From Mariprofundus aestuarium (GTDB lineage: Bacteria > Pseudomonadota > Zetaproteobacteria > Mariprofundales > Mariprofundaceae): a stretch of DNA of 64,000 nt. Positions within the stretch are counted from its first letter, which is position 1; every line of letters begins with the position of its first letter. The position numbers were made by a program, and so were the translations under genes. The stretch spans positions 2,349,001-2,413,000 of the forward strand of contig NZ_CP018799.1 of assembly GCF_002795805.1 (NCBI RefSeq), written 5' to 3'. Below, piece after piece: positions 792-56,990 of the stretch. The notes under the pieces were generated by a model. It did not search any database. It had not been told where the DNA came from and saw only the letters and a program-made list of their open reading frames with translations.

Positions 792-1608
792 TTCAATACT
801 AATCATTGGTCACCCAAGTTCTGGAAAAACCACTTTTATTGCTCAGTTTCTCACTAGGGTTAAGAAAAGGAAAAGCAGCATAAGCCTTATCAAAGCCCCT
901 GAGAACATAAAAGCTGTTGCAGATGCGGTAAAAAAACTTTCTAACGGAGAAGCGCCAACAGCAACCCCAGCAGGTGAAAATGAAGAACTAGTTTTATCCA
1001 TCCAGGTCGGTGAGAAAAGCATCGACTTAGTTTGCCCTGATTATGGGGGTGAACAGGTCAGTGACATGACTGAATTGATGACCATTGATGATCATTGGAA
1101 AAAACTACTGAATAACAGTGACCGATGGGTATTATTCATTCGTGCTCATACCATTATGCCTAGGTATGACTTAAGTAGAAATAGTTATGAAAAAATAGAT
1201 AACGAAAAACATACATCCTTAAGAAGCCCCGGATTATCTGAACAAAGCAAGTTTATTGAATTGCTTCAATCAATGCTGCATATTAAAAATATAGGTCTGA
1301 AGCATCCAATTTCCATGCCTACAATATCAATTGTTCTTACATGTTGGGATGAGTTAGAAACAAATGAAACCCCTGCCCAGGTTTTGCAAGACAAACTACC
1401 CATGCTGCTCCATTTTGTTGAAACTGTATGGGAAAAGGATTCTTTTGAGATATTTGGGCTATCAGCACAAGAGTTTCCATTGAATACAATTGAAGCAAAA
1501 GACAAATATCTGGATGATCTACCTGAAAGCTTTGGTTACGTGGTAGATCAGAATGGAGCAAAGGATAAAGATATCACCAAACTTGTTGCGGCCACCCTTA
1601 ACCTCTAA
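778..1608 (+). CDS. P-loop GTPase, second component of the conflict operon
   Basis: A second, divergent GTPase-like protein of 276 aa. The Walker A GHPSSGKTT is near residues 11-19, the G3-like DYGGEQ near 88-93, and TCWDELE near 188-194 stands in for the NKxD specificity motif. The chosen ATG at 778 has an AGAGG Shine-Dalgarno 5 nt upstream; a longer frame starts at 736 but lies inside the upstream gene and lacks such a site. The stop codon shares one base (TAATG) with the start of the 837-aa partner, so translation is probably coupled. Two unlike GTPases side by side followed by a GAP1-like protein is a recognised layout in the conflict systems described by Aravind and co-workers. The function itself is inferred. 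Confidence 0.75.
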   Translation: MSVNDSILIIGHPSSGKTTFIAQFLTRVKKRKSSISLIKAPENIKAVADAVKKLSNGEAPTATPAGENEELVLSIQVGEKSIDLVCPDYGGEQVSDMTELMTIDDHWKKLLNNSDRWVLFIRAHTIMPRYDLSRNSYEKIDNEKHTSLRSPGLSEQSKFIELLQSMLHIKNIGLKHPISMPTISIVLTCWDELETNETPAQVLQDKLPMLLHFVETVWEKDSFEIFGLSAQEFPLNTIEAKDKYLDDLPESFGYVVDQNGAKDKDITKLVAATLNL

Positions 1609-4121
1609 TGATCATTCATCAGGCAATCTATGGGGATAAGTCAGGAGCTTATGCCCTACTTAAAACAAGCTTAACGGATACCGCCGCTGCAAAGCGAATA
1701 TGCAATGTTACCGATTTGTTAGATCGACCTTCAAATGGGCATTTAGCTCAACCTGTGTTTCGAGGGTTCAGTTTTGATAACCTTTATATTTTTGTTAAAT
1801 CATTTCCAGATAACGACCCCACTGTTAGGAACGGTCGAGTATTATCACATACATTAATTGTTAGCCAAGATGATCTACACCGACTAAATGATTTAGAAAA
1901 ACTGTTTTCTCATTTCATGCCCGAATTAGATAAAGCCTTTGAACCAATGCCCATAGAAATTGATGATGCCCCCCCCAATAGGATTAAAACTATTGATCAT
2001 ATATCCCGAGAAGCAGCAGGAATAAATGGACTGCTTCATGATTTGAAACAGAACAACACATTATTATGGATAGGTGAAGAGGAGTATGTTTCTTTTATTT
2101 CCCAAATTTGGAGCCGATTGGATGGCAGCTTAAGGGCTACGGTCAGATTAGGTGTAGGTTTTAATCCTCAAAAGGTTACATCTGAACATATAAGTGTCTT
2201 ATATGTTCCAGAGTCGTATGCAAATAAATGGCAAGCCACAGATTATTGCGTCATTGGTAAAAACGAGAGCGGGACCTTGGAAGGAATGGCATCATTTCAT
2301 TTAGCGGGGCATGAAACTAAAGCTAAGCCTCTTTGTGATTTGATTAGGACATTCAGACTAGAGGTCACTAAAATTGAAGACTTTGTTTTTTTAACAGCTG
2401 CAGCAAAGACCTATAAAGGTTTAGCTATATCTACTGATCTTATCCTACTAATAGCCCTTTGTGATCTAATCTCAAAATACAGTCCTAATCCAAATATTGC
2501 AAAAAAAGGAAAGAAAGAACTGTTATGCGTATTATTGTCTCGAGTTGAATCAGCATCTGCAAAACAGATCATGATGATCAATCATGCAAATTGGCTAGGG
2601 TTCTCCAATGCAGGGCAACTAATCGGTGAGAAGTTGACTGCCTGGAGTGCAGGTTCTTTGACCAGCCCTCAATCAGATGACTTAATTCCAGAGCTTATCT
2701 CTACAGCATTTGATCAGGACAATAAAAACCATTGGTGGAAAAAATCTATTTCTAAGGCTTTAAACAATGTACTGGGAAACTGGAAAACAACTTACGCGGA
2801 AACCCTATGGAATTGGTTCTCAAAGGATGTCGATTTAGTAAAAACATTGGGGGAGCTAATACCCGACTCAGTTCAAGCAGAAGAAGACTTTGTAAGCCAT
2901 ATGCGGCAACTAGAGCCTCAGCTTGCTCAAAATCTCCAGATGTTTGCAAAAAATAGGAAATGGCTAACCCTTCATGGCTTATCCACTTTGCAAATCTCCA
3001 GCCCCAAAGAAAGTATAAAAAGACAGCTGAAAATAGACATCGACCCTTCTAATTCTGCAGCCCTGAAAAGAATGGCTGATCAAATCCTTGATAAAGAGTT
3101 CCTGCAGCTGACATTGGAAATTGGAGAATCCCGATTAGTAAGAATTGCTGCCTCCAAACTGGTAAGAACCCCCTCATTAACAAGCTCTATAAACGTTAAA
3201 GATGAAGTTTGGCAGAAAATATGGCGTGAAAGCATTGACCAAGGTCTACATCCTTGGATGGGCATCAAGGAGCCAATGAAAGTGCTTTATTCTCTCTTTG
3301 ACGAGGTAATAAAGGGAAATGAAATAGAGCCTAGTCTTCTATTGAGGCTGAGCGCATCTGAATACAATGATTTGTCATGCTTTAAGAAAAGAGCTGAAGT
3401 TTGGAAAAACCTAAATGGAGGAGCTAAATTAGGCTTCCTAAATGCAAGTTCGCTGGGGTGTGTACGGCGACTAAACAACAATAGCATTACCATAGAGAGC
3501 ATTGAGAAAGAGGTTCAGCATCAGTTAAGTTGCTCAGCAACAATAGCGCATGTAATTGCAGATAATAATATTAAAACATCAACAAAAATGATGTTATTTG
3601 AGAAGCTTCCAGCGCTTCAGGAAAAGGAAATTATCATACTGTTGAATACAGTTCGATTCTCTTCAGAAGAGTCAAAACGCTTAGGGAGTTTAGTATCTAG
3701 GAATTACTGGAAAAGTGCGGCCAAGGCTATAGCTAATAAGACGCCTTCAAGAGCTGATTTGAAACCAGCTTTAATAGAATGTCGATTATTATTGAGCTTT
3801 TTTGAAAAATTGAATTTATCTCATCTTTGGGGATTTTCTGAATCCTTTTCTAAAGAGGAATGGTGGAAGGCACTTGAAGAGCAATGTTACTCCAAATACT
3901 CAAGTGGCCCCAAGCAGTCGGGGTTGTGGGAAAGAGCTGGAGGAGAAAATTATGACTTGCAAAGTACAGGATCAGGCCGTGAAATATGGTTAGATGCTAT
4001 AAAGAAAATTAGAAGTGGCAGTACACATGTAAATGGCGCGAATCTGATTCATGAGATGTTAAACGATTATCATTCTAGCCCCGAACTGAAACAATTAAAA
4101 CAAACTGTAGGTGAATTATGA
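1608..4121 (+). CDS. GTPase-associated protein (GAP1-like) with C-terminal effector-associated-like domain
   Basis: An 837-aa soluble protein starting MIIHQAIYGDKSGAYALL, which resembles the GAP1-N domain of GTPase-associated proteins. The long middle part is mostly helical and has no recognisable enzyme motif. The last ~65 residues (about 773-837) begin LWERAGGENYD, continue with a W.DAIKK block and an LIHEML..DY block, and align with the tail of the next gene product. I read this as an EAD1-like effector-associated domain used for homotypic recruitment. It overlaps the upstream GTPase by 1 nt and the downstream nucleosidase by 4 nt (ATGA). The proposed role is an adaptor linking GTPase state to the effector. 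Family assignment is moderate and comes from pattern, not a search. Confidence 0.7.
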   Translation: MIIHQAIYGDKSGAYALLKTSLTDTAAAKRICNVTDLLDRPSNGHLAQPVFRGFSFDNLYIFVKSFPDNDPTVRNGRVLSHTLIVSQDDLHRLNDLEKLFSHFMPELDKAFEPMPIEIDDAPPNRIKTIDHISREAAGINGLLHDLKQNNTLLWIGEEEYVSFISQIWSRLDGSLRATVRLGVGFNPQKVTSEHISVLYVPESYANKWQATDYCVIGKNESGTLEGMASFHLAGHETKAKPLCDLIRTFRLEVTKIEDFVFLTAAAKTYKGLAISTDLILLIALCDLISKYSPNPNIAKKGKKELLCVLLSRVESASAKQIMMINHANWLGFSNAGQLIGEKLTAWSAGSLTSPQSDDLIPELISTAFDQDNKNHWWKKSISKALNNVLGNWKTTYAETLWNWFSKDVDLVKTLGELIPDSVQAEEDFVSHMRQLEPQLAQNLQMFAKNRKWLTLHGLSTLQISSPKESIKRQLKIDIDPSNSAALKRMADQILDKEFLQLTLEIGESRLVRIAASKLVRTPSLTSSINVKDEVWQKIWRESIDQGLHPWMGIKEPMKVLYSLFDEVIKGNEIEPSLLLRLSASEYNDLSCFKKRAEVWKNLNGGAKLGFLNASSLGCVRRLNNNSITIESIEKEVQHQLSCSATIAHVIADNNIKTSTKMMLFEKLPALQEKEIIILLNTVRFSSEESKRLGSLVSRNYWKSAAKAIANKTPSRADLKPALIECRLLLSFFEKLNLSHLWGFSESFSKEEWWKALEEQCYSKYSSGPKQSGLWERAGGENYDLQSTGSGREIWLDAIKKIRSGSTHVNGANLIHEMLNDYHSSPELKQLKQTVGEL

Positions 4122-5155
4122 ACAACAATAACTGTATTCTTGTACTTACAGCACTACCAGTAGAAAGGGACGCTGTGATTAAGCACTTAACCGATGCCAA
4201 AGTCGAAAGGCACCCTGATACTGGAACTGATTATCACCGTGGTTTTGCTTCAAGCACATCAGGAAAAATCCCTGTAATTGTAGGACGTACTGATCAAACA
4301 AATATTAATGCAGCAGTGGAAACAGAAAGAGCCCTTGAATATTACAAGCCATCCCACGCATTTTATGTGGGTGTTGCTGGCGGCTTAAAGGATGTGAAGG
4401 TTGGGGACATAGTCGTTGGGAATGATGTGCTTGGCTATGAACGTGGAAAAGCAGAAGATGAATCATTCAAGCCAAGGCCACAATTCGGAGCCTCATCTTA
4501 TGATCTTGAGCGTGCTGCCAACGCTTATTCGATTAGTGCCGATTGGAAAGCAATTTCGTCTTCATTAGTAGATGTTGAGTTTGCACCAGAAATTACGGTT
4601 TTGTCTGGTACAATTGCTTCGGGTGAGAAGGTTGATGCTTCTTATAAATCGGCCCTACATAAGCATATAAAATTAAATGCCAGCCATGCACTGGCCATTG
4701 AAATGGAAGGGCTTGGTTTTCTCACCGTCTGTAGGAGTCGGCCAGCAGTTAAAAGTTTATTGGTTAGAGGTATCTCTGACTTGGTGAATGACAAGGGAGC
4801 TATGGATGATAAAGGCTCCCAGCCTTATGCCTCTCAAAATGTAGCTGCATTTTTATTTGGTTTTATCTCAACTCTGGATTTATCTAATGTACGGATTGAA
4901 ACATCAAAAACTAATCAAACACTTGAAATCGTATGTAAGCTGTACCCAAGAGGGGTAGAAGATAGAAAAATATGGGAACGAGCAGGAGGAGACCTCTCTT
5001 TTCTTACTCTCAGCACTCAGGGAAAAGGCCAATGGTTTGATGCCATTAAACTGCTTGAACAAGGTGGAGGAGGCTCTGATATTGATCTAAATAGCCTCAT
5101 TCAAGCAATGCAGGAGGACTTCCCAAAGAATACAGATTTAATTGGAGCCCTTTAA
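4118..5155 (+). CDS. Nucleosidase (PNP/MTAN superfamily) effector with C-terminal EAD-like domain
   Basis: 345 aa. Residues 1 to ~255 form a purine-nucleoside-phosphorylase/MTA-SAH-nucleosidase fold: an N-terminal LVLTALPVERDAV strand-helix, the glycine-rich YVGVAGGLKDVKVGDIVVG at 83-101, the substrate-binding AIEMEG at 193-198, and the catalytic-aspartate region VRGISDL at 216-222. Residues ~284-345 (IWERAGGDLSF...WFDAIKLLEQGGGG...LIQAM) repeat the tail of the upstream GAP1-like protein. The likely action is cleavage of a nucleoside or nucleotide N-glycosidic bond, which could deplete a cellular pool when the GTPases sense invasion. The ATG overlaps the preceding stop by 4 nt. The nucleosidase fold is well supported; substrate and toxicity are inferred. 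Confidence 0.8.
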   Translation: MNNNNCILVLTALPVERDAVIKHLTDAKVERHPDTGTDYHRGFASSTSGKIPVIVGRTDQTNINAAVETERALEYYKPSHAFYVGVAGGLKDVKVGDIVVGNDVLGYERGKAEDESFKPRPQFGASSYDLERAANAYSISADWKAISSSLVDVEFAPEITVLSGTIASGEKVDASYKSALHKHIKLNASHALAIEMEGLGFLTVCRSRPAVKSLLVRGISDLVNDKGAMDDKGSQPYASQNVAAFLFGFISTLDLSNVRIETSKTNQTLEIVCKLYPRGVEDRKIWERAGGDLSFLTLSTQGKGQWFDAIKLLEQGGGGSDIDLNSLIQAMQEDFPKNTDLIGAL

Positions 5156-5195
5156 GCTTCAGAGCTTGTAATGATTAGAAGAAGGACAAAACAGT

Positions 5196-5717
5196 ATGGA
5201 TGAACTATCCAGAATCCTAAAGGTGGCGACTGCAGGTATTGAATGGCCATATTTCCATCTAAACATCGATGGCGGAGACCCAGTCTTTCGCGAACGCGTC
5301 TACTGTTATGAGCTTTATCATCAGATGCGGAATAACTGGCCAAATGAAAGTGAATTTATTCTCAATGGCGAGATTGATAAAAGTGCCCACCCAGTTCTGA
5401 GGGCGCTAGGTGCTGACCATGTAAAACCTGATCTGTTAGTCCACACGCCAGGCAACATGGCTGGAAACTATGCAATCATAGAGGTTAAGCACTCCACGGA
5501 AAATGCAGGTATCCGAAAAGATCTAAATACGTTGGATTTATTCGTGCGCAGGGTGGGTTACCGGAGGGCAATCTATCTTATTTATGGCCAAGGGGCCGAT
5601 GCCAATGGGGTTGAAAAAATTATGACTGTTGCAAGAGAGTTCCACGAACTAGTGCCTATTGAACTTTGGTTGCACCATGACGTTGGCCAACCGGCCTCGT
5701 GTAAGATTTCGCTCTAG
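5196..5717 (+). CDS. Small PD-(D/E)XK-like nuclease candidate
   Basis: 173 aa, no signal peptide or membrane segment. The core has KPDLLVH (Asp79) followed 17 residues later by IIEVKHS (Glu96, Lys98), the D...ExK spacing expected of the restriction-endonuclease fold. An upstream conserved-looking helix, RERVYCYELYHQMR, could supply the additional acidic residue (Glu33). It starts 40 nt after the nucleosidase on the same strand with a GAAGGA ribosome-binding site, so it is probably in the operon. It could be a second effector, an immunity-like partner or an independent gene. The fold call rests on the motif alone. Confidence 0.55.
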   Translation: MDELSRILKVATAGIEWPYFHLNIDGGDPVFRERVYCYELYHQMRNNWPNESEFILNGEIDKSAHPVLRALGADHVKPDLLVHTPGNMAGNYAIIEVKHSTENAGIRKDLNTLDLFVRRVGYRRAIYLIYGQGADANGVEKIMTVAREFHELVPIELWLHHDVGQPASCKISL

Positions 5718-5737
5718 CGTAACTGTCTGGAGAAACC

Positions 5738-6619
5738 ATGGATTTTAAAGTAATACATCAAGATGCTGCAGGACTTATAACCACCACCCTCGGTTCAATA
5801 GGATACTTAGCCTTTTGCAAGCATCTAACCTTTGCAGGGGTTGGGCCGATAATGGCCCCATATTTAGCCTCAAGGCTCTTAGGTGATATATGCGGGTTTA
5901 ACCAGTATTGGGGTAACAACCCAGTAAGCTTTGAACTCCCTAACCCTTTCAACAATGACCCAACTGAAACAGCGTATGTTTCGAATAGAGTTGGCAGAGC
6001 CTTTGCTGATTACCTTTCAAAAAATATTTATGGGGCTATTTATACTCATTGCTATGAGGATGCCATGGTGGCGAATGGAAATCCGGTTGCTGGTTCTCGC
6101 CCTGACTTTTATTGCGATGACCCATTAAATCTTACCCGATTTGCGGTAGAGTCCAAGGGGTATGCATGTGCGACTTATTCAGAAAATGAAATGAATCGAA
6201 TTCTCCCGACTAGAGGCCCAAAGCTACAATCAACTACAGGCCCTCTTCGTAAGGATTTTAGCGTAGCAAGTGTGGCATATAATCTATATGCAGAACCTAC
6301 TATTAAGTTTTATGATCCTATCAGCACAAGTACTATATACGATAAAAACTTAAGTCAGAGATTAAGATCAGGATATTATGAGAGTATTTTGGGGTCAATT
6401 AACAGCCTAGGTTTAGAGCGAGATACAAATATTCATGATCAAAATTTTGTAGCTTACAAGATACCTATCGTTTCATGTTCAATATCAAAGATATTGCTAC
6501 ATCAAGCTATTGTAAAAAGAGAATGGAATAACAATGAATGGCTCAAGGAAATAGGGAAAAACAGGAAGGATGAAAAGTATTATATTGATAATGATGGAAT
6601 AGGTTTCGCAAGTTATTAA
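5738..6619 (+). CDS. PD-(D/E)XK-like protein of unknown function
   Basis: 293 aa, lying 20 nt after the previous gene with a GGAG site before the ATG. It contains SRPDFYC (Asp123) and, after a short strand, FAVESKGY (Glu138-x-Lys140), again the D...ExK arrangement of restriction-endonuclease-fold proteins. The N-terminal ~50 residues are rather hydrophobic but do not form a clear signal peptide. The C-terminal third is rich in Asn, Lys and Tyr, in keeping with the AT-rich island. No closer family was recognised. It may act with the upstream small nuclease candidate, which has a different sequence but the same catalytic layout. Confidence 0.5.
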   Translation: MDFKVIHQDAAGLITTTLGSIGYLAFCKHLTFAGVGPIMAPYLASRLLGDICGFNQYWGNNPVSFELPNPFNNDPTETAYVSNRVGRAFADYLSKNIYGAIYTHCYEDAMVANGNPVAGSRPDFYCDDPLNLTRFAVESKGYACATYSENEMNRILPTRGPKLQSTTGPLRKDFSVASVAYNLYAEPTIKFYDPISTSTIYDKNLSQRLRSGYYESILGSINSLGLERDTNIHDQNFVAYKIPIVSCSISKILLHQAIVKREWNNNEWLKEIGKNRKDEKYYIDNDGIGFASY

Positions 6620-6686
6620 ATCAATGTAAATTGTCATTTCGTTCGCATTATTTTGCTCTCATCTTTGCAGCAACTATAGGCTGGTT

Positions 6687-6764
6687 GCAGACTGAACCCA
6701 AAAGTGACACCCCACTGTGATTTAAAGTGACAGGTTAGTGTGACTCAAAGTGACACCCTGCTGT
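6687..6764 (-). repeat. Transposon-end-like array, left: three contiguous 23-bp repeats
   Basis: Read on the minus strand, three abutting 23-bp units begin TGTCACTTTGAGTCACAC (6733-6755), TGTCACTTTAAATCACAG (6710-6732) and TGTCACTTTTGGGTTCAG (6687-6709). The 34 bp at 6731-6764 recur exactly in inverted orientation at 19524-19557. Tandem transposase-binding units of this size are typical of Tn7-like and IS21-like ends. No transposase gene is adjacent. Confidence 0.65.
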
Positions 6765-6772
6765 GGCTTATC

Positions 6773-6804
6773 GAATGACTGCTTTCGGCCAAAAGCGGAC
6801 ATTC
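6773..6804. repeat. Imperfect palindrome, copy 1 of a dispersed family
   Basis: A 32-nt near-palindrome, GAATGACTGCTTTCGGCC at the left and AAAAGCGGACATTC at the right. It belongs to the 'GGCCAA' centre type. It lies between the nuclease-candidate operon and the small membrane genes. Confidence 0.7.
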
Positions 6805-6814
6805 AAAAGCATCA

Positions 6815-6828
6815 ATATTCATATAGTT
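6815..6828 (+). repeat. 14-bp direct repeat, candidate attachment site (left)
   Basis: ATATTCATATAGTT, identical in sequence and orientation to 16198-16211, which lies about 105 bp upstream of the serine recombinase start. The pair could mark the ends of a 9.4-kb integrative element. It is AT-rich and short, so chance is possible. Confidence 0.35.
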
Positions 6829-6838
6829 TGATGATCTG

Positions 6839-7042
6839 TTAATAGTCTTTGAAGCCAAAGATATATTTGAAATAAGGTCGAATAAATAAATAGAAAATTA
6901 ATAGCCATAGTAAAATGGTTATTGTTAAGCCCCAGGCTCCGCCCAATGAGTATTCATCCAGATAGGGCTTTAGCAGAAAACAACCTATAAACCCTACAGC
7001 CCCTAAAATAGCCTTAAATTTCACAACCTTTTCTCTATTCAT
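6839..7042 (-). CDS. Small two-helix membrane protein
   Basis: 67 aa with two hydrophobic stretches (about residues 10-25 and 36-55) joined by a short polar loop, and charged ends (MNREKVVKFK at the N-terminus, a basic-aromatic C-terminus). No family recognised. It follows a second tiny membrane gene (7051-7209) by 8 nt on the same strand, which suggests a two-gene unit. The pair is bounded by palindromic repeats on both sides. Confidence 0.5.
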   Translation of the reverse strand: MNREKVVKFKAILGAVGFIGCFLLKPYLDEYSLGGAWGLTITILLWLLIFYLFIRPYFKYIFGFKDY

Positions 7043-7050
7043 TATAGGTA

Positions 7051-7209
7051 TTAATCATCCTTATTTACTGTTGTTCGAAACCAGCCCAGAAAATATATCC
7101 CCATAAATAAAGATCCAAATTTTACTAAATTATTCCATGGGCCATGCAGATCAAGAATGACAAGTAATATAGCTATAGAAAAAAACAGTACGCCTAGAAA
7201 AATCTTCAA
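7051..7209 (-). CDS. Tiny membrane protein with TTG start
   Basis: 52 aa beginning M(TTG)KIFLGVLFFSIAILLV and ending TTVNKDD, with two predicted membrane helices. An AAAGGA ribosome-binding site lies 8 nt before the TTG. It is easily missed because it uses a non-ATG start. It ends 8 nt before the next small membrane gene. Function unknown; toxin-like or phage-defence small membrane proteins often look like this, but nothing specific supports that here. Confidence 0.4.
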   Translation of the reverse strand: MKIFLGVLFFSIAILLVILDLHGPWNNLVKFGSLFMGIYFLGWFRTTVNKDD

Positions 7210-7233
7210 CTAGTCATCCTTTGGCTAGAAATC

Positions 7234-7265
7234 AAATGTCCGCTTTGGGTCGGAAGCAGTCATTC
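7234..7265. repeat. Imperfect palindrome, copy 2
   Basis: AAATGTCCGCTTTGGGTC followed by GGAAGCAGTCATTC. It is the 'GGGTCGG' centre type, also seen at 8119 and (inverted) 16267. It separates the tiny membrane genes from the lipoprotein gene. Confidence 0.65.
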
Positions 7266-7301
7266 CATTTCTCGTTTAACAGAGTCAACATTGACGTATT
7301 C

Positions 7302-8093
7302 TTAGTTGCCAAACCAGTAACCAAAACTGGTTACCCATGCAACTTTTCCATTATGGATTCCTACCGCATACTTATTATGGGAGGTTGTATATATACGGAA
7401 AATATAGTCACTCTTTCTGTTGATCATCCCTGTATAATCATCTCCCAGTAGCTCATCGATCTTCTGTTTTGAATCTTGCAGCTGAATTTTAGTTATATTT
7501 TGACTGAACTTACTTTCATTCGATGATCCTAATGCATAACTTGCGGCGCCAACTGGAAGCAATGGAGATGCTATTGCAACCAACAACAGCATCGAAGCAG
7601 CCTCACCTACATTTGAATGGGATGATTGAGCTTCGCTTGTCTTTATCTCCTTGCTAATCCTCACATTAACAAACTCATCTGAATGAATGGAATTGCGCCT
7701 TTTAAGTACCTCATCATATAAGCTTCCAAAGCCATTCTCGAAAGGAAACACCCCATCAGCCTTGTCCTTGGCTAGTGCATTCTTCCATGCAGCAAATAAC
7801 ACACTTTGTTTCATAATAGCTACAAGCCGAAAGTCCTTAAATGCAAAGACATAAGGCTTATTAAAGTGGTAATAAGTTACCAAGACCCATGCGCTGCCTT
7901 GATGAGTCCCTTTCAGGGCTGCACTACCATCATGCCCTGCCAGTTTGTTTATGGTTTCATCGTAAGTCATTCCGTAAGAAAATGGGCCAACCTGAGTAGG
8001 CTTGTCTTTTTGCTTAGCAATTGAACCACAAGAGACGACTAGTAAGCCTAAAACAAGTATACACAACAATCTGGTTAAAGATCTAATACTCAT
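7302..8093 (-). CDS. Predicted lipoprotein of unknown function
   Basis: 263 aa. A lipoprotein signal peptide is clear: basic MSIRSLTR, a hydrophobic core, then the lipobox VVSC with the acylated Cys at residue 22. The mature part starts GSIAKQKDKPTQVGPFSYGMTYDE. A second hydrophobic stretch (about residues 165-190, MLLLVAIASPLLPVGAASYAL) might insert in a membrane. The repeated FSYGMTYDE and YKQKIDELLG-type blocks recall SmpA/OmlA-like small lipoproteins, but the match is weak. It is a single gene between two palindromic repeats, so it may be a stand-alone cargo unit. Confidence 0.6.
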   Translation of the reverse strand: MSIRSLTRLLCILVLGLLVVSCGSIAKQKDKPTQVGPFSYGMTYDETINKLAGHDGSAALKGTHQGSAWVLVTYYHFNKPYVFAFKDFRLVAIMKQSVLFAAWKNALAKDKADGVFPFENGFGSLYDEVLKRRNSIHSDEFVNVRISKEIKTSEAQSSHSNVGEAASMLLLVAIASPLLPVGAASYALGSSNESKFSQNITKIQLQDSKQKIDELLGDDYTGMINRKSDYIFRIYTTSHNKYAVGIHNGKVAWVTSFGYWFGN

Positions 8094-8118
8094 TTAATCC
8101 CCACAAATAGAATATTCT

Positions 8119-8135
8119 GAATGTCCGCTTTGGGT
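8119..8135. repeat. Half palindrome, copy 3
   Basis: GAATGTCCGCTTTGGGT, identical to the left arm of copy 2; the right arm is missing. It lies just upstream of the lipoprotein gene. The rest of the 8136-8297 gap is AT-rich with nothing I can name. Confidence 0.55.
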
Positions 8136-8297
8136 GCTATATGGCTACATTAGTCAATTGTTTTTGATTAAAAGGCTATTAATAATTGTTATCTAGGATC
8201 TTTCAAATCATTTTGTGCGTCTTCAAATGAAAGTGGATCATGGGGGGAATTGAAAAGCAGATAGCAAACCTAGAGCCTATTCCAGCTTCACTATCAA

Positions 8298-9782
8298 TTA
8301 AATACAACTTACTCGATTCCTGCCATTTTTCTTTGAGAGGTACATCGCTTGGTCTACTCGATTCAGAATGGACCGTTCGGTATCATCAGAAATTTTTTGT
8401 GTTACTCCAATACTAACTGTTACATTCATACCTTCTAATTCAACTAGGGTTACTTTTTCTTCAATGTTTGTTCGAATTCGCTCTGCTATTACTTCCGAAT
8501 CATCATCTTTTGTCTCTGGAAGGAGAATGATGAATTCTTCACCACCAAGTCTGCCTATGAAGTCAATTTCCCTAAGTTCTTCAGTACATATATTACAAAC
8601 ACTTTGTAGGACGCTATCACCAGTAGAATGGCCAAACCGGTCATTAATATCTTTAAAATGATCTAAATCCAGCATCAACAATGAAAATGGAGATCCATGA
8701 CGATTTGAACGTTTCAACTCAAACCCAAGCTGATTTATGATTGAACGTCGATTATGAATTCCTGTTAATGGGTCTGTGGAAGCCAATATTGCAAGCTCTT
8801 CTGTGCGTTTCCGAACTTTAGATTCTAATGTAGTATTCGATTCTCGTAGTTCATTCTGAATAGACTCTTTTTCATATAATATTGAATGGACTATTAATGA
8901 TGCGATCGACAGAATTGAAAGAAAGACTTGTAGTTCAATCAGTCCGTAGTTCAAGTCACCGTGTGAAAAACGTCCCACTCCCATTCTAGTTGCTATAATA
9001 GAAATGATTCCTATCAACAGGATAGAGCTGTGTGTGGCATGAGGGCTGAAACGGAAAATTGACCACATTAAGGGCAGTATTAGAACGGATAGAGGAAGCA
9101 TAAAACCATCTACGACCTCTACTAACCCAAGACTGTATATGCCAATAATTAGCAAGATGGAAGCATAGCTGAGTATCTCTAAACCATAGTGAAACTTTCG
9201 TTCTTTCATGAGCCAATAGAGTAGAAATGGAGTAATAAGAATTATCCCTACTGCATCTCCAACCCACCATGTTATCAACATATCAAAACATTGACCCCAG
9301 GGGGCAATGTTCACCGTGCATAGCGAAATAACTCCAAATATGGCACTGATTCCACTTCCGAGAAATGCCCCAAAAAGAACAAAGAGTGCAACACCTTTAG
9401 ATCGCTCAAAAGGGAAAGAGGTCGCAGTAAAACGTTGAATCAGGTATGCCCCGACTAAAAAGCATAAAACGTCACCGACTCCATTGCTGGTTCCAGCGAT
9501 AAGTGTCGCCATGAGCTCGGCTGTAGTTTGACCTGAAAAATAAGCCCATGTGTTGCCGCAAAAAGCCCCTATAAATATACCCGGCCAGATTCGGTATCCA
9601 CGCCACAAAACTGCTGCAAGCATAATGCCGGATGGAATCCAAACCGGTGTCACATTGCCTGGATTTATCGCAAAACTTTGGCTGACTTTGGCTGTTAAGA
9701 AGTAAATAATTGCCAGAAGAACTATTTCCACTAACCGAACAGTTAATGAATTCTCAGCCTTAATTGCTGCACCATCCCTCAA
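8298..9782 (-). CDS. MASE1-GGDEF diguanylate cyclase
   Basis: 494 aa. Residues ~15-305 are a MASE1 membrane sensor (multiple helices, NVTPVWIPSGIMLAAVLW). A short coiled linker precedes a GGDEF domain (~335-494). The active-site loop is intact (RLGGEEF, residues 411-417), and the upstream REID (404-407) fits the RxxD inhibitory site, so it probably makes c-di-GMP from two GTP and is product-inhibited. No EAL domain follows. The start overlaps the stop of the histidine kinase by 4 nt, so the two are co-translated and probably act on one signal. Location: inner membrane. Confidence 0.88.
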   Translation of the reverse strand: MRDGAAIKAENSLTVRLVEIVLLAIIYFLTAKVSQSFAINPGNVTPVWIPSGIMLAAVLWRGYRIWPGIFIGAFCGNTWAYFSGQTTAELMATLIAGTSNGVGDVLCFLVGAYLIQRFTATSFPFERSKGVALFVLFGAFLGSGISAIFGVISLCTVNIAPWGQCFDMLITWWVGDAVGIILITPFLLYWLMKERKFHYGLEILSYASILLIIGIYSLGLVEVVDGFMLPLSVLILPLMWSIFRFSPHATHSSILLIGIISIIATRMGVGRFSHGDLNYGLIELQVFLSILSIASLIVHSILYEKESIQNELRESNTTLESKVRKRTEELAILASTDPLTGIHNRRSIINQLGFELKRSNRHGSPFSLLMLDLDHFKDINDRFGHSTGDSVLQSVCNICTEELREIDFIGRLGGEEFIILLPETKDDDSEVIAERIRTNIEEKVTLVELEGMNVTVSIGVTQKISDDTERSILNRVDQAMYLSKKNGRNRVSCI

Positions 9783-12106
9783 TTGTCCCCCTCTTTATCA
9801 AGTAAATATCTGGCAAGTGTATTGGCAAGCTGATCAATACTATATGGCTTACTTAAAACTATAGAGGTGCCATTTTCAGCCATCTCTCCTTTATCGTAAC
9901 CGCTAGAAAAAATGATGTTAGCCTCGGGGGAAATTGCTTTGATTTGCTTTGATGCTTCAGTCCCTCCCATTTCCGGCATAACAACATCCATGATTGTAAG
10001 GGCGATTTCAGAAGAATTAGATGTAAAAATATCTATAGCCTCCACTCCATTCGATGCAGTCAGCACCTTGTAGCCAAGGCTTTTGATCAAATCTTTGCTT
10101 GTGTTTAAAAGCACCTCATTATCATCAACGAGAAGTATTAGCTCTCCATTGCCTAATGGGGGCCCCAATGAGTCTGTAGAAGAAGTGTCTATTTCCTCTC
10201 CTTCAATTAAAGGTAAATAGATATGGAAGGTTGTACCATCGCCATCAACGCTATCCAATTCTATAACTCCACCATGGCTTTGAATTGAGCCATGGCACAT
10301 AGCAAGCCCTAATCCAGTCCCCTTACCGGCCTCTTTAGTGGTATAAAAAGGGTCGAAAATGTGTGGTTTGTCTTTTTCGCTGATTCCCATGCCATTATCA
10401 CTAACAATCAAGTGGGCGAGCAAAGTACAATCAAGGTTTGAATATTTACTCAGAAAATCTTCATCTGCCTCGAACCTCTCAAGACTTAGTTTGATTTCAG
10501 GGGCATCTATATTGCCCAGAGCGTCCTTCGCATTATTTATTAGGTTCATAACAACCTGCTGTAATTGAGTAGCACTCCCCTTCACCGTAAGGTCATCGCT
10601 ACAAGAATGAATCGAAAGTTTGATGCTCTCAGATATGAGTGGTTCACAAACCTTAGCAATCTCTTTAATGAAAGGAGTGAGACTAAATGGAATCATCTCA
10701 ACAGAACCTTTACGAGCAAACAAAAGCATCTGCTGTATCATTTCAGACGCTTGAAAACTCAACTTCTCAACAAGCTTTATCCTATTCACAACGTCTGGAA
10801 TGCTTTCTGCCTTTTTCCTCGCCAGATAGAGATTGCCAGTCATTCCTGCCAACATATTGTTGAAATCATGGGAAATCCCACCGACCAGTGTACCCAGAGC
10901 CTCCATTTTTTGAGCCTGCCTGAATTTCTCATCACTGATACGTAAGGCAGCCTCAGCATTTTTGCGCTCTGTAAGGTCTGTAAATGTTGCCAATATATGG
11001 TCACCTACAGTAACACCTGAGATTTCCATTATTCGAACATCACCATTCTTGCATGTCACTTTATATTCTCTGGATTTAATGTCTTGTCCTAGCTCGGCCG
11101 CAATTTGGATATCACTATTCCAGACATTAATAGCCCATTGACGATATTCCTCATCGGGATAGGCAAGCTGATACCACTTTTCAACCGTTGAAATCTCTTC
11201 ATGAGTGTAACCGAAAGTCTTCTTGAATCGGTCATTAATATCCTCGATGACCCCACTTTTAGACACATAGCCGAGCGACAACGGCATCTCTTTGACTAAT
11301 TTGCGAAAACGGTTTTCACTCTCAACCAAATCTTTAAAGGGCTCCTGCATGTTCAAACGAATAATCGAATATAAAATCAGCCAGAAAGAAAAGAGTTTGA
11401 AAATATGGCCGATGAGGTTTGCTGGTCCATAAGCGCTGATATAACTAGTGAAGGCTAATTCAGCAAAAATTGTCAGAACAATGGCTGTCGATAAAAATGG
11501 AAATAGATTGGGTTTTAAATGCTGTCTGGTTTTATAGAGATTAACTAATGCCAGAAACAGAATAAAACAGATGATATATTCACTGGTGATTTTGAATTCA
11601 GTAAGTCCTACGCCTTCAATATAGGAAACCGGGAAATATCCCCCCATGATGGCAATGCAGGTGATGGAAGCTATTGCACCATATGCAAGAAACGCTCCTG
11701 TACTATGTATTTTCCTAGTTAGAAATAAAGGCGCTGTAATAAGAAGCAGTGATTCTATGTATCTATTTGCAATCCAAAACTGGATAAAATGGTCTGCCAC
11801 ATCACTGACAACAATACCCATCCCTTTATAGAGAAAGGCATGAACCATATCCAGCACTGCAATCCAAAAATAGCCTATCCCCAAGTACATTAGAAAGCTT
11901 TCTCGAGATAGGGAATGGGTATAAACAGCAACCACAAACATGAGAACACCGACAATAATTGTAAAAAGTTCAGCAAGTGTATGGAACAGAAGGTAATTAT
12001 AAAAACTTACGACAATCAAGGCTGTAGAAAGCACTATGGGAACAATCCAAACTTCCCAGTTTAAGAGAATGGCGAAGCCTTCAAATATTTTCTTTCTTTC
12101 CGCCAA
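9779..12106 (-). CDS. Hybrid sensor histidine kinase (MASE3-PAS-HisKA-HATPase-REC)
   Basis: 775 aa. Residues ~15-250 are a MASE3-type membrane sensor with seven or eight helices, followed by a PAS domain (~262-385). The HisKA segment ISHDFNNML carries the phospho-acceptor His413. The ATPase has NLINNAKDAL, DNGMGIS and GTGLGLA. A C-terminal receiver (~655-770) carries Asp707 in IMDVVMPEMGG. The His-Asp-Phe-Asn-Asn pattern is typical of hybrid kinases. It overlaps the diguanylate cyclase downstream by 4 nt. The signal is unknown. It sits on mobile DNA, so this is transferable signalling cargo rather than a core pathway. Confidence 0.88.
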   Translation of the reverse strand: MAERKKIFEGFAILLNWEVWIVPIVLSTALIVVSFYNYLLFHTLAELFTIIVGVLMFVVAVYTHSLSRESFLMYLGIGYFWIAVLDMVHAFLYKGMGIVVSDVADHFIQFWIANRYIESLLLITAPLFLTRKIHSTGAFLAYGAIASITCIAIMGGYFPVSYIEGVGLTEFKITSEYIICFILFLALVNLYKTRQHLKPNLFPFLSTAIVLTIFAELAFTSYISAYGPANLIGHIFKLFSFWLILYSIIRLNMQEPFKDLVESENRFRKLVKEMPLSLGYVSKSGVIEDINDRFKKTFGYTHEEISTVEKWYQLAYPDEEYRQWAINVWNSDIQIAAELGQDIKSREYKVTCKNGDVRIMEISGVTVGDHILATFTDLTERKNAEAALRISDEKFRQAQKMEALGTLVGGISHDFNNMLAGMTGNLYLARKKAESIPDVVNRIKLVEKLSFQASEMIQQMLLFARKGSVEMIPFSLTPFIKEIAKVCEPLISESIKLSIHSCSDDLTVKGSATQLQQVVMNLINNAKDALGNIDAPEIKLSLERFEADEDFLSKYSNLDCTLLAHLIVSDNGMGISEKDKPHIFDPFYTTKEAGKGTGLGLAMCHGSIQSHGGVIELDSVDGDGTTFHIYLPLIEGEEIDTSSTDSLGPPLGNGELILLVDDNEVLLNTSKDLIKSLGYKVLTASNGVEAIDIFTSNSSEIALTIMDVVMPEMGGTEASKQIKAISPEANIIFSSGYDKGEMAENGTSIVLSKPYSIDQLANTLARYLLDKEGDN

Positions 12107-12194
12107 ATTCAGTATCCCATATCAAAGTAATCAAGTATTGTAGTTCAAAAGCACAGTAGCGTTTCTCTATATATAGATGGTTAAGGAAAACCAA

Positions 12195-12569
12195 TCAAGT
12201 TTTGCTAGTAGCCCAGTGCCTAGCATCCTCAAGAGTATGGAAAACATCACATTCGAAAACTTGCTCTCTCATTAGAGAGCAATAGTTATTTGCTAAATCA
12301 AGCAACGGCCCTTGGGGTACAACTAGAGCTATTTTAAGTTGATGTTTTGTGCGAGAGATCATTTCATCAGTAGATGCATATATTTCCGTATGCCCGACCT
12401 CTACAGAGTGACTAGAAACGCCTAAAAAGTCATTAATCACATACTCGATATCTTTAAAGCGAACATCTGAATGGTGCTCAACATTAGATTCAAAAATCTC
12501 GCAGCCACTAACTTCTCCAGTGAATAACCTATGCAAGCCAGTTTTCTCCCATATATTTGTATATGCCAT
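12195..12569 (-). CDS. SpoIIAA-like/STAS-like small protein
   Basis: 124 aa from the ATG at 12569, which has an AAGGAG site about 10 nt upstream; an in-frame extension to 12623 lacks one. The sequence has alternating strands and helices (an HSVEVGHTEIYAS strand, LKIALVVPQG, then a C-terminal VFHTLEDARHWA helix) as in SpoIIAA-like proteins. That last motif is typical of the family. It lies 88 nt upstream of the histidine kinase on the same strand, so it may be the first gene of that operon. Function unknown. Confidence 0.5.
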   Translation of the reverse strand: MAYTNIWEKTGLHRLFTGEVSGCEIFESNVEHHSDVRFKDIEYVINDFLGVSSHSVEVGHTEIYASTDEMISRTKHQLKIALVVPQGPLLDLANNYCSLMREQVFECDVFHTLEDARHWATSKT

Positions 12570-12940
12570 AATAATGTAAACACTCCTTATCAAGAGACCA
12601 AATAAGATATATCGACAAGGCATATGAAAACATTAATAGATAGCTATAAACAGTAAGGGTCAACGAAACCTTTTGCAGTTAAGAAAAACTTCTTGCTTTT
12701 TTAGGGTGTTTGGATGAAGACTTGTACAAGAAAAGAAGGTCGAAATCGACTGAATATTTCACTATCCTCTTCAGATGCATATATACCCTAACAAAATAGA
12801 TCTGTTAAAACCATAAACTTCATTGCAATGGAGTTGATAACTCATTCATTTATATTCAGCTCATAATTCAAGTGATCAAAAACACTCCCGATAAGTATTC
12901 CTGCATGTATTTTTAGTTTTACTGTGCCCTCTGCGTAAGA

Positions 12941-12993
12941 GCGCGCTTAGGCGTTTCTCTTCGAGAAACGGCGCGTTAAGGGCTAGCCCTTAA
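12941..12993 (+). other. Candidate origin of transfer (oriT) of a MOBQ-type element
   Basis: In the ~500-bp gap before the relaxase gene there is a hairpin with arms CGTTTCTC (12952-12959) and GAGAAACG (12963-12970), flanked by GCGCGC and GCGCG, followed by a perfect 18-bp palindrome at 12976-12993 (TTAAGGGCTAGCCCTTAA). The GTTTCTC/GAGAAAC hairpin next to a GCGC tract closely resembles, from memory, the RSF1010/R1162 oriT hairpin. Its position directly before a MobA/L gene supports the call. The remaining gap (12624-12940) is AT-rich without visible features. Confidence 0.6.
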
Positions 12994-13074
12994 AACCCCA
13001 TGCATATTTAGTTTGTTTTAGTTCCACTTTTTTACGTTACCTATTTCAATTTTATGAGGAATAGGTGCGTCTTG

Positions 13075-14469
13075 ATGGCAGCATATCATCTAACTCTGAA
13101 AGTGGGCTCCAAAGGAAAGGCTACCCCACATTTTAACTATATCTGTGCATCAGGGAAGTATGATGCCAAGCGCGGAGTGGTCCATGCCGAACACGGCAAC
13201 ATGCCACTATGGGCTGCTTCAGATCCCGCCTTGTTCTGGAAAGCATCGGATGAATTCGAGCGTGCTAACGGCACGGCATATAGAGAACTCGAAGTTGCAT
13301 TGCCGAGAGAGTTGCCACTGCCACAGCAGATTGAATTAGCTAAAGAGTTAGCCGAAGAGGCATGCGGGAACCATCATGCTTATAGCTTCGCAATCCATCA
13401 TACAAAGGCGGGTGATGGTGGCATGAATCCTCACGTGCACCTTCAATTCTCGGAACGCATTGATGATGGGTTCGAGCGGGAGCCACAGCACTACTTCAAA
13501 CGCGCGAACAAGAAAGAGCCAGAGAAAGGTGGATGTGTAAAGGATAGGTCTTGGCAGGCAACGAAACGCGGAAATCAGAAAGTCGCTGAATCCAGTGGTC
13601 GATTACTAGATATTCGGTTGCAATGGGAGGTTATGTGCAATCAGGCTCTCGATGACTTTGGAGTAGACGCCTCAGTTGATTGTCGCAGTTATGCAGACCA
13701 AGGCATAGAGCTGACCCCACAACCTAAAGTTGGCGCAAGTTCCTGGCATAGATTTCAACGTACTGGTGAAAAGAACGAACGCTTCCAGAGATATGATGAA
13801 GTAGTTCAGGCCAACCATCCGATAGTTTGTGATTTAGACAAATTAAGGTTCCAGTCCCTAGAGCGTCGTCAGAATGAGTTGATTGAAGAACGGAGTACCA
13901 TTACGCGAGAACTCAATCAGTTAAGACAGAAGAGGCCTGATGTTCGCAGTAGAGATGAAGTTATCATAGACCTATTGCCAAGAATCAAGGCTGGAAAGAG
14001 CTGTTTGAGCAAACTTAAGCTGGCCAAGCAGAGCTATACCAAGGCGCATAACAGGTATCAAGGGTACCGCCAGATCATGGAGCCTACCCTGACTTGGGGA
14101 AACATTGGTAAGAAAATAAAATGCTGGCTTGATCATAGTTCAAAAGCAGGTGAACAGATGCTTCTAAAGCAAGCGCGAGATTCACATCTGCTCGCAAAGC
14201 GGGAAGCGAGAGCTTTACTCAGGAAGGCCAAGAGCAGCCCTATCATGCATGACAAGGCAGAGGTGGTTATAGATGGCGAGCGTAAAGAGCATTTGCATTG
14301 GGATCAGAACATCAAGGCATTGAGGGGCAGGATGTCAGCTATTAATGAGACCCTTGAGAGCACTAGAGAATCAATTGCTCTATTGCAAAGAAAGCACCCT
14401 GATATTGATGCGCCTGAGCAGGTGCAGCCTCAAGAAGATATTGGACTGCACCTGTCATTAAGAATGTGA
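13075..14469 (+). CDS. MobA/MobL family relaxase (MOBQ)
   Basis: 464 aa from the ATG at 13075, preceded by AGGTG; an earlier in-frame ATG at 13054 has no ribosome-binding site. The N-terminus MAAYHLTLKVGSKGK is typical of the family. The metal-binding motif lies in HHTKAGDGGMNPHVHLQF (His120, His122) and candidate catalytic tyrosines are Tyr22/Tyr29. From ~residue 265 the protein is charged and coiled-coil-rich. It nicks oriT and pilots the single strand during mobilization. No helicase or primase domain is fused and no type IV secretion genes are present, so transfer would depend on a helper. It converges on the recombinase gene with only 3 bp between stops. Confidence 0.88.
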   Translation: MAAYHLTLKVGSKGKATPHFNYICASGKYDAKRGVVHAEHGNMPLWAASDPALFWKASDEFERANGTAYRELEVALPRELPLPQQIELAKELAEEACGNHHAYSFAIHHTKAGDGGMNPHVHLQFSERIDDGFEREPQHYFKRANKKEPEKGGCVKDRSWQATKRGNQKVAESSGRLLDIRLQWEVMCNQALDDFGVDASVDCRSYADQGIELTPQPKVGASSWHRFQRTGEKNERFQRYDEVVQANHPIVCDLDKLRFQSLERRQNELIEERSTITRELNQLRQKRPDVRSRDEVIIDLLPRIKAGKSCLSKLKLAKQSYTKAHNRYQGYRQIMEPTLTWGNIGKKIKCWLDHSSKAGEQMLLKQARDSHLLAKREARALLRKAKSSPIMHDKAEVVIDGERKEHLHWDQNIKALRGRMSAINETLESTRESIALLQRKHPDIDAPEQVQPQEDIGLHLSLRM

Positions 14470-14472
14470 GAA

Positions 14473-16092
14473 TCAGGCCGCTTTTTTCAGATCGGCGATA
14501 TCTTCATTAATCGCTTCAAGGGTGCGTTGCTGTATCTCTAACTCAGCCCCCATAGATAGTAACTCTTCATGTTCTGAATACAGAATTACGCCTTTCTGTT
14601 GGGTTGAGCGAACATAGAAGTATACGCCACTTTCATTGAAATAAAGACGAAGACCAGCATCTTTGAATGTGGCGTTTATCTGCGCGCGCAGTTCATAAAG
14701 CTTCTGTTCATCGCTTTCATCACCTAGGTTGTAAATAGCCCTGTTTAAAGCATCGACATGTTGCTGAGTAGGAGTGAAGGTAAGAAGCTCTGATTCCTTC
14801 TGTTCAATTTCACTCTTAATCTCATCAGCAGCCTGCATGGCTTTCAGGTATCGAGAGCGAGCGTCACTAAACATGGCATCACCTGCAGTACTGAAAAGCT
14901 GAGCAAAGCGATCTACCTGCTTCTGAGTATCAGAAAGCTTCGTATTTAATGATGCAATTTCAGACTCTAACTTCTGTTTAGAATTGGCATGACCCCCTAG
15001 TGCTGAAAACCAGTCAATTTGTTCACTTAAAACAATGAGGGAGGCGTTCTCTACATCTCTATATCTCCAACGCATGGAGCACTCACAGCCAGCAGCCATA
15101 TAATTCGAATCACACAGCAATAGAGAAGCGTTGCCCCTGTTCATGAACCGATATGTACTTTCACATTCAAGACATTTACACATACCTGTGAACAAGTTTG
15201 AGAACTTAGGGCCTTTTCTGCCTGCTGACTTGTTTTTCCGGCGATTCTGCTGAGATGACTGGGCATGGTAAAACTGCTGCTCAGAGATAATAGACGGATA
15301 GTAATCTTTGATTGCTGAACCAACTGGTTCACCATTTTGGCAAGGTTGATACTCCCCCATTGTTGAGCGACTACTTAGCACCCTCGCGATATATGATGTA
15401 TGCCACATTTTCGCTCGACCAAAGGGTGTTACACCTTCCTCATTCAATGAGGAAGCTATTTTACGACGGCCAACACCTGCAATGCTCTGAGAGAAGATAG
15501 AGCGCACGATTTCTGCATGCTCTTCTATGACTTCAAATCTCTGTTTGTCATCTGACAGGCGTAGCCAGTGTGGAGCCTTACCTGTTATTGGTCGCTTAGT
15601 TTCTACAGCCAGTCTGCGTCTGTTCTCCCAGCTTGCTGCAGAACGTTTTGATTTGATTGCTGACTCTTCATGACTTCTGCTCATTGATATTAAGCTATAC
15701 ATCAATTGGCCTATATCATTGACGCTTTCGGCAGTGTAATGCTGGTTGTCGGCTAGGGTCACAATTTCAACTCCAGCTTCAATAATAGATGAGAACAGAG
15801 AAAGGGCTGTAAAGATTTGCTGCCGAGACAACCGATCCAAGCTTTCGAGAATCAATATTGATCCTTTTTCAACTCGCCCAGCTTCTACTAGCTCAATGAA
15901 CTTCTTTAAGGCACCTTCAGTGCTGTTCTTTCCACGAAAGGCGGATACACCGATATCTCGCAATGACTCATCGAGTAATAATCCATTCTCTTCAGCGTAT
16001 GCACGGGATGCTTCTAGCTGACGGCGAAGGCTATCGCCTTTTAGTTGATCAGGGGTAGAGAATCGAATGTATGAATATGCTTTCTTTGTCAT
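14473..16092 (-). CDS. Large serine recombinase (integrase)
   Basis: 539 aa. The N-terminal resolvase domain (~1-150) starts AYSYIRFSTPDQ with catalytic Ser12 and contains the ESLDRLSRQ arginine motif. A Recombinase domain (~165-275) is followed by a cysteine-rich zinc ribbon (CKCLECESTYRF...) and a coiled coil near 370-445. These are the standard parts of a large serine integrase that carries out attP x attB recombination. Paired with the relaxase and oriT it makes an integrative mobilizable element. The 226-bp gap upstream (16093-16318) holds a candidate attachment repeat at 16198 and palindrome copy 4. Confidence 0.9.
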   Translation of the reverse strand: MTKKAYSYIRFSTPDQLKGDSLRRQLEASRAYAEENGLLLDESLRDIGVSAFRGKNSTEGALKKFIELVEAGRVEKGSILILESLDRLSRQQIFTALSLFSSIIEAGVEIVTLADNQHYTAESVNDIGQLMYSLISMSRSHEESAIKSKRSAASWENRRRLAVETKRPITGKAPHWLRLSDDKQRFEVIEEHAEIVRSIFSQSIAGVGRRKIASSLNEEGVTPFGRAKMWHTSYIARVLSSRSTMGEYQPCQNGEPVGSAIKDYYPSIISEQQFYHAQSSQQNRRKNKSAGRKGPKFSNLFTGMCKCLECESTYRFMNRGNASLLLCDSNYMAAGCECSMRWRYRDVENASLIVLSEQIDWFSALGGHANSKQKLESEIASLNTKLSDTQKQVDRFAQLFSTAGDAMFSDARSRYLKAMQAADEIKSEIEQKESELLTFTPTQQHVDALNRAIYNLGDESDEQKLYELRAQINATFKDAGLRLYFNESGVYFYVRSTQQKGVILYSEHEELLSMGAELEIQQRTLEAINEDIADLKKAA

Positions 16093-16197
16093 AATGAAGG
16101 CTCCTTAAAATCAGGCCTACTTGTTTATCGGTAGGTTTTCTGACTAATGTAGCCGAACAGTGTCGTATGCAGCCGTTCATTTTCGATATATTAGACC

Positions 16198-56958: not shown

Positions 56959-56990
56959 AAAAAAGGGACGGTAATTACCGTCCCTTTTTT
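56959..56990. terminator. Bidirectional rho-independent terminator
   Basis: A perfect 32-bp palindrome whose arms contain AAAAAAGGGACGGTAA and its reverse complement, giving a U-run in both directions. It ends the hcp side and the minus-strand mscS gene. Confidence 0.9.

Follow-up and report, generated by a model that had tools for sequence, protein, structure and literature searches.

The window analysed here, a stretch of 64,000 nucleotides of the Mariprofundus aestuarium chromosome (genome G000, one contig of 2.54 Mb), includes a putative integrative mobilizable element (IME) of 8.0 kb that extends from about nucleotide 8134 to 16163. An 11-bp terminal arm, GGCTACATTAG, is found on the plus strand at 8143-8153 (att), and its inverted copy is found on the minus strand at 16144-16154, 51 nt from the start of the recombinase gene. 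A core GT lies 7 nt outside each arm, the spacing being identical at both ends, and it is this combination of paired inverted arms and equidistant GT that bounds the element at 8.03 kb. From left to right the minus strand codes for a MASE1-GGDEF protein (8298-9782), a probable diguanylate cyclase, and a hybrid histidine kinase (9779-12106) with MASE3, PAS, HATPase and receiver domains in Pfam and an H-box that reads as an intact SHDFNN; both were considered cargo. These are followed by a 142-amino acid ORF without a Pfam match (12195-12623, minus strand), which is probably cargo as well and not a mobilization gene, since the homologous ORF of this genome is located outside a second element. 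The right part includes the relaxase gene mobA (13075-14469, plus strand) and, convergent with it, the gene for a large serine recombinase (14473-16092, minus strand). The gene content of the element is limited to those listed.

The recombinase includes Resolvase and Recombinase domains and a weak Zn-ribbon match in Pfam; the first two domains, together with a predicted attP made of inverted repeats around a 2-bp orientation-setting core, are those expected of the large serine recombinases. mobA and the recombinase gene are convergent in all five elements that have both, and the module oriT-mobA-recombinase is present in the window and in four further elements. As judged from the sequence, the locus has what characterizes a canonical IME: its own relaxase and oriT, its own recombinase, recognisable ends, and no transfer pore. 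A preliminary description of the locus had called the relaxase gene chromosomal, which is true but incomplete, as the gene lies within an IME that can be delimited. The G+C content is low in the left part of the window, which fits acquired DNA and extends beyond the element. The empty target site of this copy was not found in any of 23 genomes of the genus. VirB4 (PF03135) is absent from the host genome and present in only one of the 23 genus genomes, so that no helper is apparent; two coupling-protein-like genes are found in the host genome, one of them inside another recombinase-bearing region. A third recombinase-bearing region of this genome (L087, G000:C1:2300001-2320000, nucleotides 3746-11334) includes a relaxase of the TrwC type (MOBF) and a coupling protein of the TrwB type beside a serine recombinase of 50% identity, indicating that the recombinase family travels with a different mobilization module too.

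The mobA product is a 464-amino acid MOBQ relaxase whose only Pfam match is PF03389; the start codon was assigned by homology within an ORF open from nucleotide 13054. It matches the structure of R1162 MobA (2ns6, E 1.7e-33) and, less strongly, that of the nicking enzyme 4ht4 (E 4e-4), and shows 38% identity to an RSF1010-type MobA over 282 aligned columns and 42% identity to MobA of the Escherichia coli plasmid p2018-05-2CC_3. The alignment covers the Tyr region as well as the NPHxHL motif, which we take to be the site of the catalytic residues. Matches to this protein were found in 3,102 of 72,556 plasmid records, all with less than 60% identity, and a search of genome contigs returned M. 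ferrooxydans PV-1 only. The MobA of the IncQ1 plasmid L045 has in addition the RepB primase domains PF16793 and PF22448; the window MobA has neither, and for this reason the possibility that the locus is an IncQ plasmid remnant was rejected. In L045 mobA lies on the hairpin side of oriT and mobC on the nick side. Near the oriT of the window, no minus-strand ORF longer than 44 amino acids starts between nucleotide 12624 and oriT, although Pfam is described in the available part of PMC6856555 as missing some MobC types.

Upstream of mobA, the hairpin GTTTCTC-TTC-GAGAAAC reported in the preliminary description is present at 12953-12969, its arms extending to 8 bp (12952-12970). On the minus strand this core inverted repeat, named H2, reads GTTTCTC-GAA-GAGAAAC and matches the RSF1010 repeat in 17 of 17 nucleotides. 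The strand is a correction to the preliminary description: it is the minus strand that matches RSF1010, which locates the adjacent palindrome on the mobA side and the predicted nick to the left of the hairpin, between nucleotides 12942 and 12941. The region reads GTTTCTCGAAGAGAAAC-GCCTAAGCGCG-CTCTTACGCAGAG on this strand. After the 17-mer the window continues as TAAGCGCG/CTCT versus TAAGTGCG/CCCT in RSF1010, with a common nic core, TAAG.GCG/C.CT. A table in PMC4814116 gives the RSF1010 nicking substrate as CAGTTTCTCGAAGAGAAACCGGTAAGTGCG/CCCTCCC, and L045 carries the same substrate sequence as that table. Alignment to both predicts the nic site of the window at TAAGCGCG/CTCT (12941-12942, minus strand). 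The adjacent MobA_MobL-type relaxase gene also has the RSF1010 orientation.

Two further structures accompany H2 on the minus strand. The DNA fold pairs GCGCG (12942-12946) with CGCGC (12971-12975) to give an outer stem around H2 (12942-12975); among relatives, GTGCG occurs within 12 nt after the core hairpin in six of eight GCGCAC oriTs, the exceptions being two IncQ1 oriTs, and GCGCG in 12 of 22 GCGCGC oriTs, counts to be read with the ease with which GCGCG stems pair. Directly after the nick, at what is predicted to be the 5' end of the transferred strand, is the hairpin H1, CTCT-TACGC-AGAG (12929-12941). Its pairing is kept in all ten zetaproteobacterial copies (CTCT/AGAG in eight and CCCT/AGGG in two; the G128 copy is a relic), where it consists of 4 bp only, and many plasmids have longer, unrelated stems at that place. 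When the minus strand from 12905 to 13000 was folded as single-stranded DNA, three tandem hairpins were obtained, namely the palindrome (H3), H2 with the outer stem, and H1, with a free energy of -19 kcal/mol (z -3.4) that was equalled by none of 200 shuffles. Hairpins of the size of H2 are not by themselves rare in the window, and its pattern, with up to two mismatches allowed, was found once, without mismatches, against 0.17 copies expected; H2 stands out from chance through its agreement with the RSF1010 nic region and through its conservation beside homologous relaxase genes.

This conservation was seen wherever mobA was found in the genus: the core hairpin, followed by a second inverted repeat, precedes mobA in all seven mobA-bearing places (two each in G000 and G104, which belong to the same genus, and one each in G044, G108 and G203). 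The order hairpin-second repeat-mobA occurs on plasmids too. Six of 398 Pseudomonadota genomes contain the exact oriT core. They are all in the family of the window, and one of them, G184, was newly found in this way; no viral contig gave a match to the exact core. With the 17-mer and nic core matched, mobA oriented as in an IncQ1 plasmid and the hairpin kept upstream of homologous mobA genes, the identification as an RSF1010-like oriT is supported; a lack of hairpin conservation at related relaxase genes, which the preliminary description had named as refuting it, was not observed. The preliminary interpretation taken as a whole is partly supported.

Several relatives include an oriT with mobA missing or incomplete. 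In G044:C26 (L090, nucleotides 4749-7689) an element with an intact recombinase and an oriT lies in a kinase H-box, its oriT core stem being altered on both arms (GTTTCCAC/GTGGAAAC), and no mobA was found within 16 kb; the L059/L090 element is possibly a hitchhiker on the mobA of G044:C55. The G128 copy (L055/L098) has a recombinase remnant beside oriT, and the G184 copy (L100) an oriT with a truncated mobA start; L055 and L100 were considered as mobA-less oriT mimics and rejected, as these features make both look like decayed elements. L062 and the Klebsiella plasmids related to it, about 2058 bp long, are ColpVC plasmids typed as non-mobilizable that include a MOBQ-type oriT and no annotated relaxase gene. 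They may be mobilized in trans.

Taken together, the feature is very probably the origin of transfer of the 8.0-kb IME. In the mechanism that we propose from these sequences, the recombinase would excise the element through its two ends as a circle with the junction CTAATGTAGCC-N7-GT-N7-GGCTACATTAG. MobA would then bind H2 and cut the minus strand between nucleotides 12942 and 12941, remaining attached to the 5' end, for which H1 is a possible fold. The transferred strand would run leftward through the cargo and once round the circle, and close with mobA, then H3, then H2 and last the nic core, at which MobA would rejoin the ends. The transfer pore and the coupling protein would be supplied by another element.

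The palindrome H3, TTAAGGGCTAGCCCTTAA, is perfect over 18 bp and is present, as had been described, at 12976-12993. The 64 kb contain just one other perfect palindrome that reaches 18 bp, a 32-bp sequence at 56959-56990 that ends in runs of A and T and is probably a bidirectional terminator. Copies of H3, exact or with two mismatches, number one in the window, with none expected from 100 shuffles. The preliminary description held that the RSF1010 origin has no such palindrome; this stands for RSF1010 itself, which has different small inverted repeats there, but the palindrome is recurrent in other MOBQ oriTs. Arms of at least 7 bp are found at the same place in eight of ten zetaproteobacterial oriTs, those of L059 being imperfect and the relic L055 having none. 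At least six of seven pairs are found in 10 of 23 plasmid oriTs (L046, L060, L061, L066, L067, L070, L111, L112, L113 and L114), the structure being absent from the other 13. These counts refer to 33 oriTs, of which 32 were parsed from 35 by the oriT pattern and one, L059, was added by exact sequence; the pattern did not parse L110 and L115, which are outside every count. The 23 plasmid oriTs were hand-picked from BLAST lists and include the near-duplicates L060/L070, L111/L114, L045/L109 and L048/L049.

Across the 13 distinct arm pairs, 84.6% of the arm cells were paired, compared to a mean of 65.4% after shuffling, a value reached in 0 of 5,000 shuffles that ignore relatedness; for the five distinct zetaproteobacterial arm pairs alone, the pairing observed among them was reached in 44 of 5,000, with relatedness likewise ignored. 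The GGG/CCC positions are invariant in 13 of 13 distinct arm pairs and, as they never vary, are uninformative on pairing; the covariation sits in the outer four arm positions. The loops are mostly of 4 nt, with others of 3 and 7 nt. We read H3 as an accessory hairpin at the terminating end of oriT, which on the transferred strand would lie 5' of the hairpin that binds the relaxase, at a distance of a few nucleotides. The variable loop length and the compensatory changes favor such a hairpin over a fixed double-stranded operator, and a role as a single-stranded hairpin, to which we give slightly less than an even chance, is the reading that we favor, ahead of an operator and, after it, a structure in leader RNA. 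H3 may aid termination, space the relaxosome, or bind MobA for autoregulation.

The location of H3 between oriT and mobA suits the proposal of the preliminary description that it is a double-stranded operator at which MobA or another regulator would bind and repress the mobA promoter. The invariant GGG/CCC positions are consistent with such a site, and there is a precedent in the MOBQ relaxase TraA of pIP501, which, according to the available part of PMC4981023, autoregulates at promoters that overlap inverted repeats. However, the spacing of the half-sites would have to vary among 3, 4 and 7 nt, the outer positions of the arms show compensatory changes, many MOBQ oriTs have no H3, and the simple scan of nucleotides 12600 to 13120 revealed no sigma-70-like promoter. 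We regard an operator as rather unlikely. The same scan called no terminator, and H3 as an intrinsic terminator was rejected because there is no T-run on either strand.

The lack of a U-tract also speaks against another explanation, in which H3, together with a second structure, H4, would act in the mobA leader RNA or block incoming transcription, keeping the relaxase low while the element is integrated. H4 (13034-13070, plus strand) was proposed from RNA folds and comparison; it would enclose the probable mobA ribosome-binding site, and it varies among relatives with its pairing kept. A terminator-like sequence, CCGCCTCACGGCGGCTTTTT, lies between H3 and mobA in G104b and G184. H4 and this stem suggest that mobA expression is kept low. 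The plus-strand RNA, however, is only weakly more stable than its shuffles (z -2.0, 6 of 200), compared with the z of -3.4 of the minus-strand DNA, and we regard a function of H3 at the RNA level as improbable, more so than the operator. It is highly improbable that we are dealing with the dead remains of an RSF1010-type plasmid, now without function: the genome has no helper VirB4 and the family has its relics (the decayed recombinase of G128, the mobA of G184 truncated at oriT), but here mobA and the recombinase gene are full-length ORFs, both ends are intact, and the module recurs in divergent elements with its pairing kept.

Outside the element, four plus-strand ORFs follow one another to its left (1608-6619), two of which were checked in Pfam with no match; this run may be a conflict or defence cluster. 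To its right is a TniQ-family gene (PF06527, 19728-20579) with no obvious transposon around it and a distant homologue about 20 kb leftward in L034.

The integration sites of related elements followed a pattern. The terminal arm was found in 13 of 17 recombinase loci examined, and is lacking in four more distant recombinases (42-53% identity); ten of the 13 lie inside histidine-kinase genes at the codons of the H-box (HDF|NN). In the sense insertions (n=8) the host reads ...GGIAHDF and then the core AA, and in the antisense insertions (n=2, G000b and G108b) the core is TT, which corresponds to the kinase base pairs of the core AA read on the other strand, as the insertion direction is opposite. 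The N-terminal kinase halves align to the window kinase, whose H-box is H413-D414-F415-N416, up to residues 415-418, and the C-terminal halves from residue 415, 416 or 422. In G104a and G108 the far end of the element provides an ATG in frame with NNxLA. The window copy itself (core AC on the recombinase strand) lies outside kinase genes, and the G184 and G044b copies are also located elsewhere.

We tentatively propose, as a possibility that falls short of being likely, a zetaproteobacterial IME family that integrates at the H-box (HDF|NN), the best-conserved codons of histidine kinases. It would split the kinase into a sensor half with an element-borne stop and a catalytic half with an element-borne ATG (G104a and G108), carry kinases as cargo, and be mobilized from an RSF1010-like oriT with the extra hairpin H3 common to a subset of MOBQ plasmids. 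On that view, signalling would be reversibly switched or rewired by integration, and every kinase gene would offer a landing site. The pattern suggests that the serine recombinase finds its address in codons that specify the active-site motif of a protein; targets of this kind are both numerous and conserved in most bacteria. Among the matches listed from the open-licence PMC literature, no title or beginning of an abstract described a histidine kinase as the target of a serine recombinase or integrase.

MOBQ oriTs, serine recombinases and IMEs are already known kinds. The searchable portion of the open-licence PMC literature yielded no description of their being combined, of an H-box target or of H3 as common to MOBQ oriTs, nor, among the papers listed, of gene transfer in Zetaproteobacteria. 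What had been noted as a lone RSF1010-like hairpin now becomes part of a putative mobile element with defined limits, open to testing, in an iron-oxidising bacterium. H3 is a further structural component of MOBQ oriTs and is also present on plasmids of Enterobacteriaceae and Acinetobacter, some of them with resistance genes.

Among the closest known systems, RSF1010/R1162 (IncQ1) shares with the window the 17-nt core repeat on the nicked strand, the TAAG-GCG/C-CT nic core, the orientation of mobA and a homologous relaxase domain. RSF1010/R1162, however, is a plasmid and the window locus an integrated element, which has a 464-amino acid MobA without RepB primase domains, no mobC that could be found, the extra hairpin H3, and, ahead of the nic core, CCTAA where RSF1010 reads GGTAA. 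The MOBQ plasmids p2018-05-2CC_3 of E. coli (L046), that of Neisseria musculi (L113) and a 4712-bp plasmid of Salmonella (L112) have the order H1-nic-H2-H3-mobA with an H3 of the GGGG-N4-CCCC type seen in the window, and plasmids like these differ in having replication genes and, in most cases, a divergent TraD/MobC-like gene. The TraA/oriT region of pIP501 (MOBQ), as presented in the available part of PMC4981023, is similar in its inverted repeats by the relaxase gene and in its autoregulation model, but belongs to a Gram-positive conjugative plasmid whose promoter boxes overlap the repeats, whereas the simple scan of nucleotides 12600 to 13120 found no sigma-70-like promoter here. The 2017 IME review PMC5704250, in its available part, lists no canonical relaxase-bearing IME in Proteobacteria. 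The serine-recombinase IMEs of Firmicutes described there resemble the element in their own relaxase, lack of a pore, single serine recombinase, intragenic insertion and very short direct repeats, and the element of the window differs from them in its proteobacterial host, its MOBQ/RSF1010-type oriT and the H-box target of most of its relatives.
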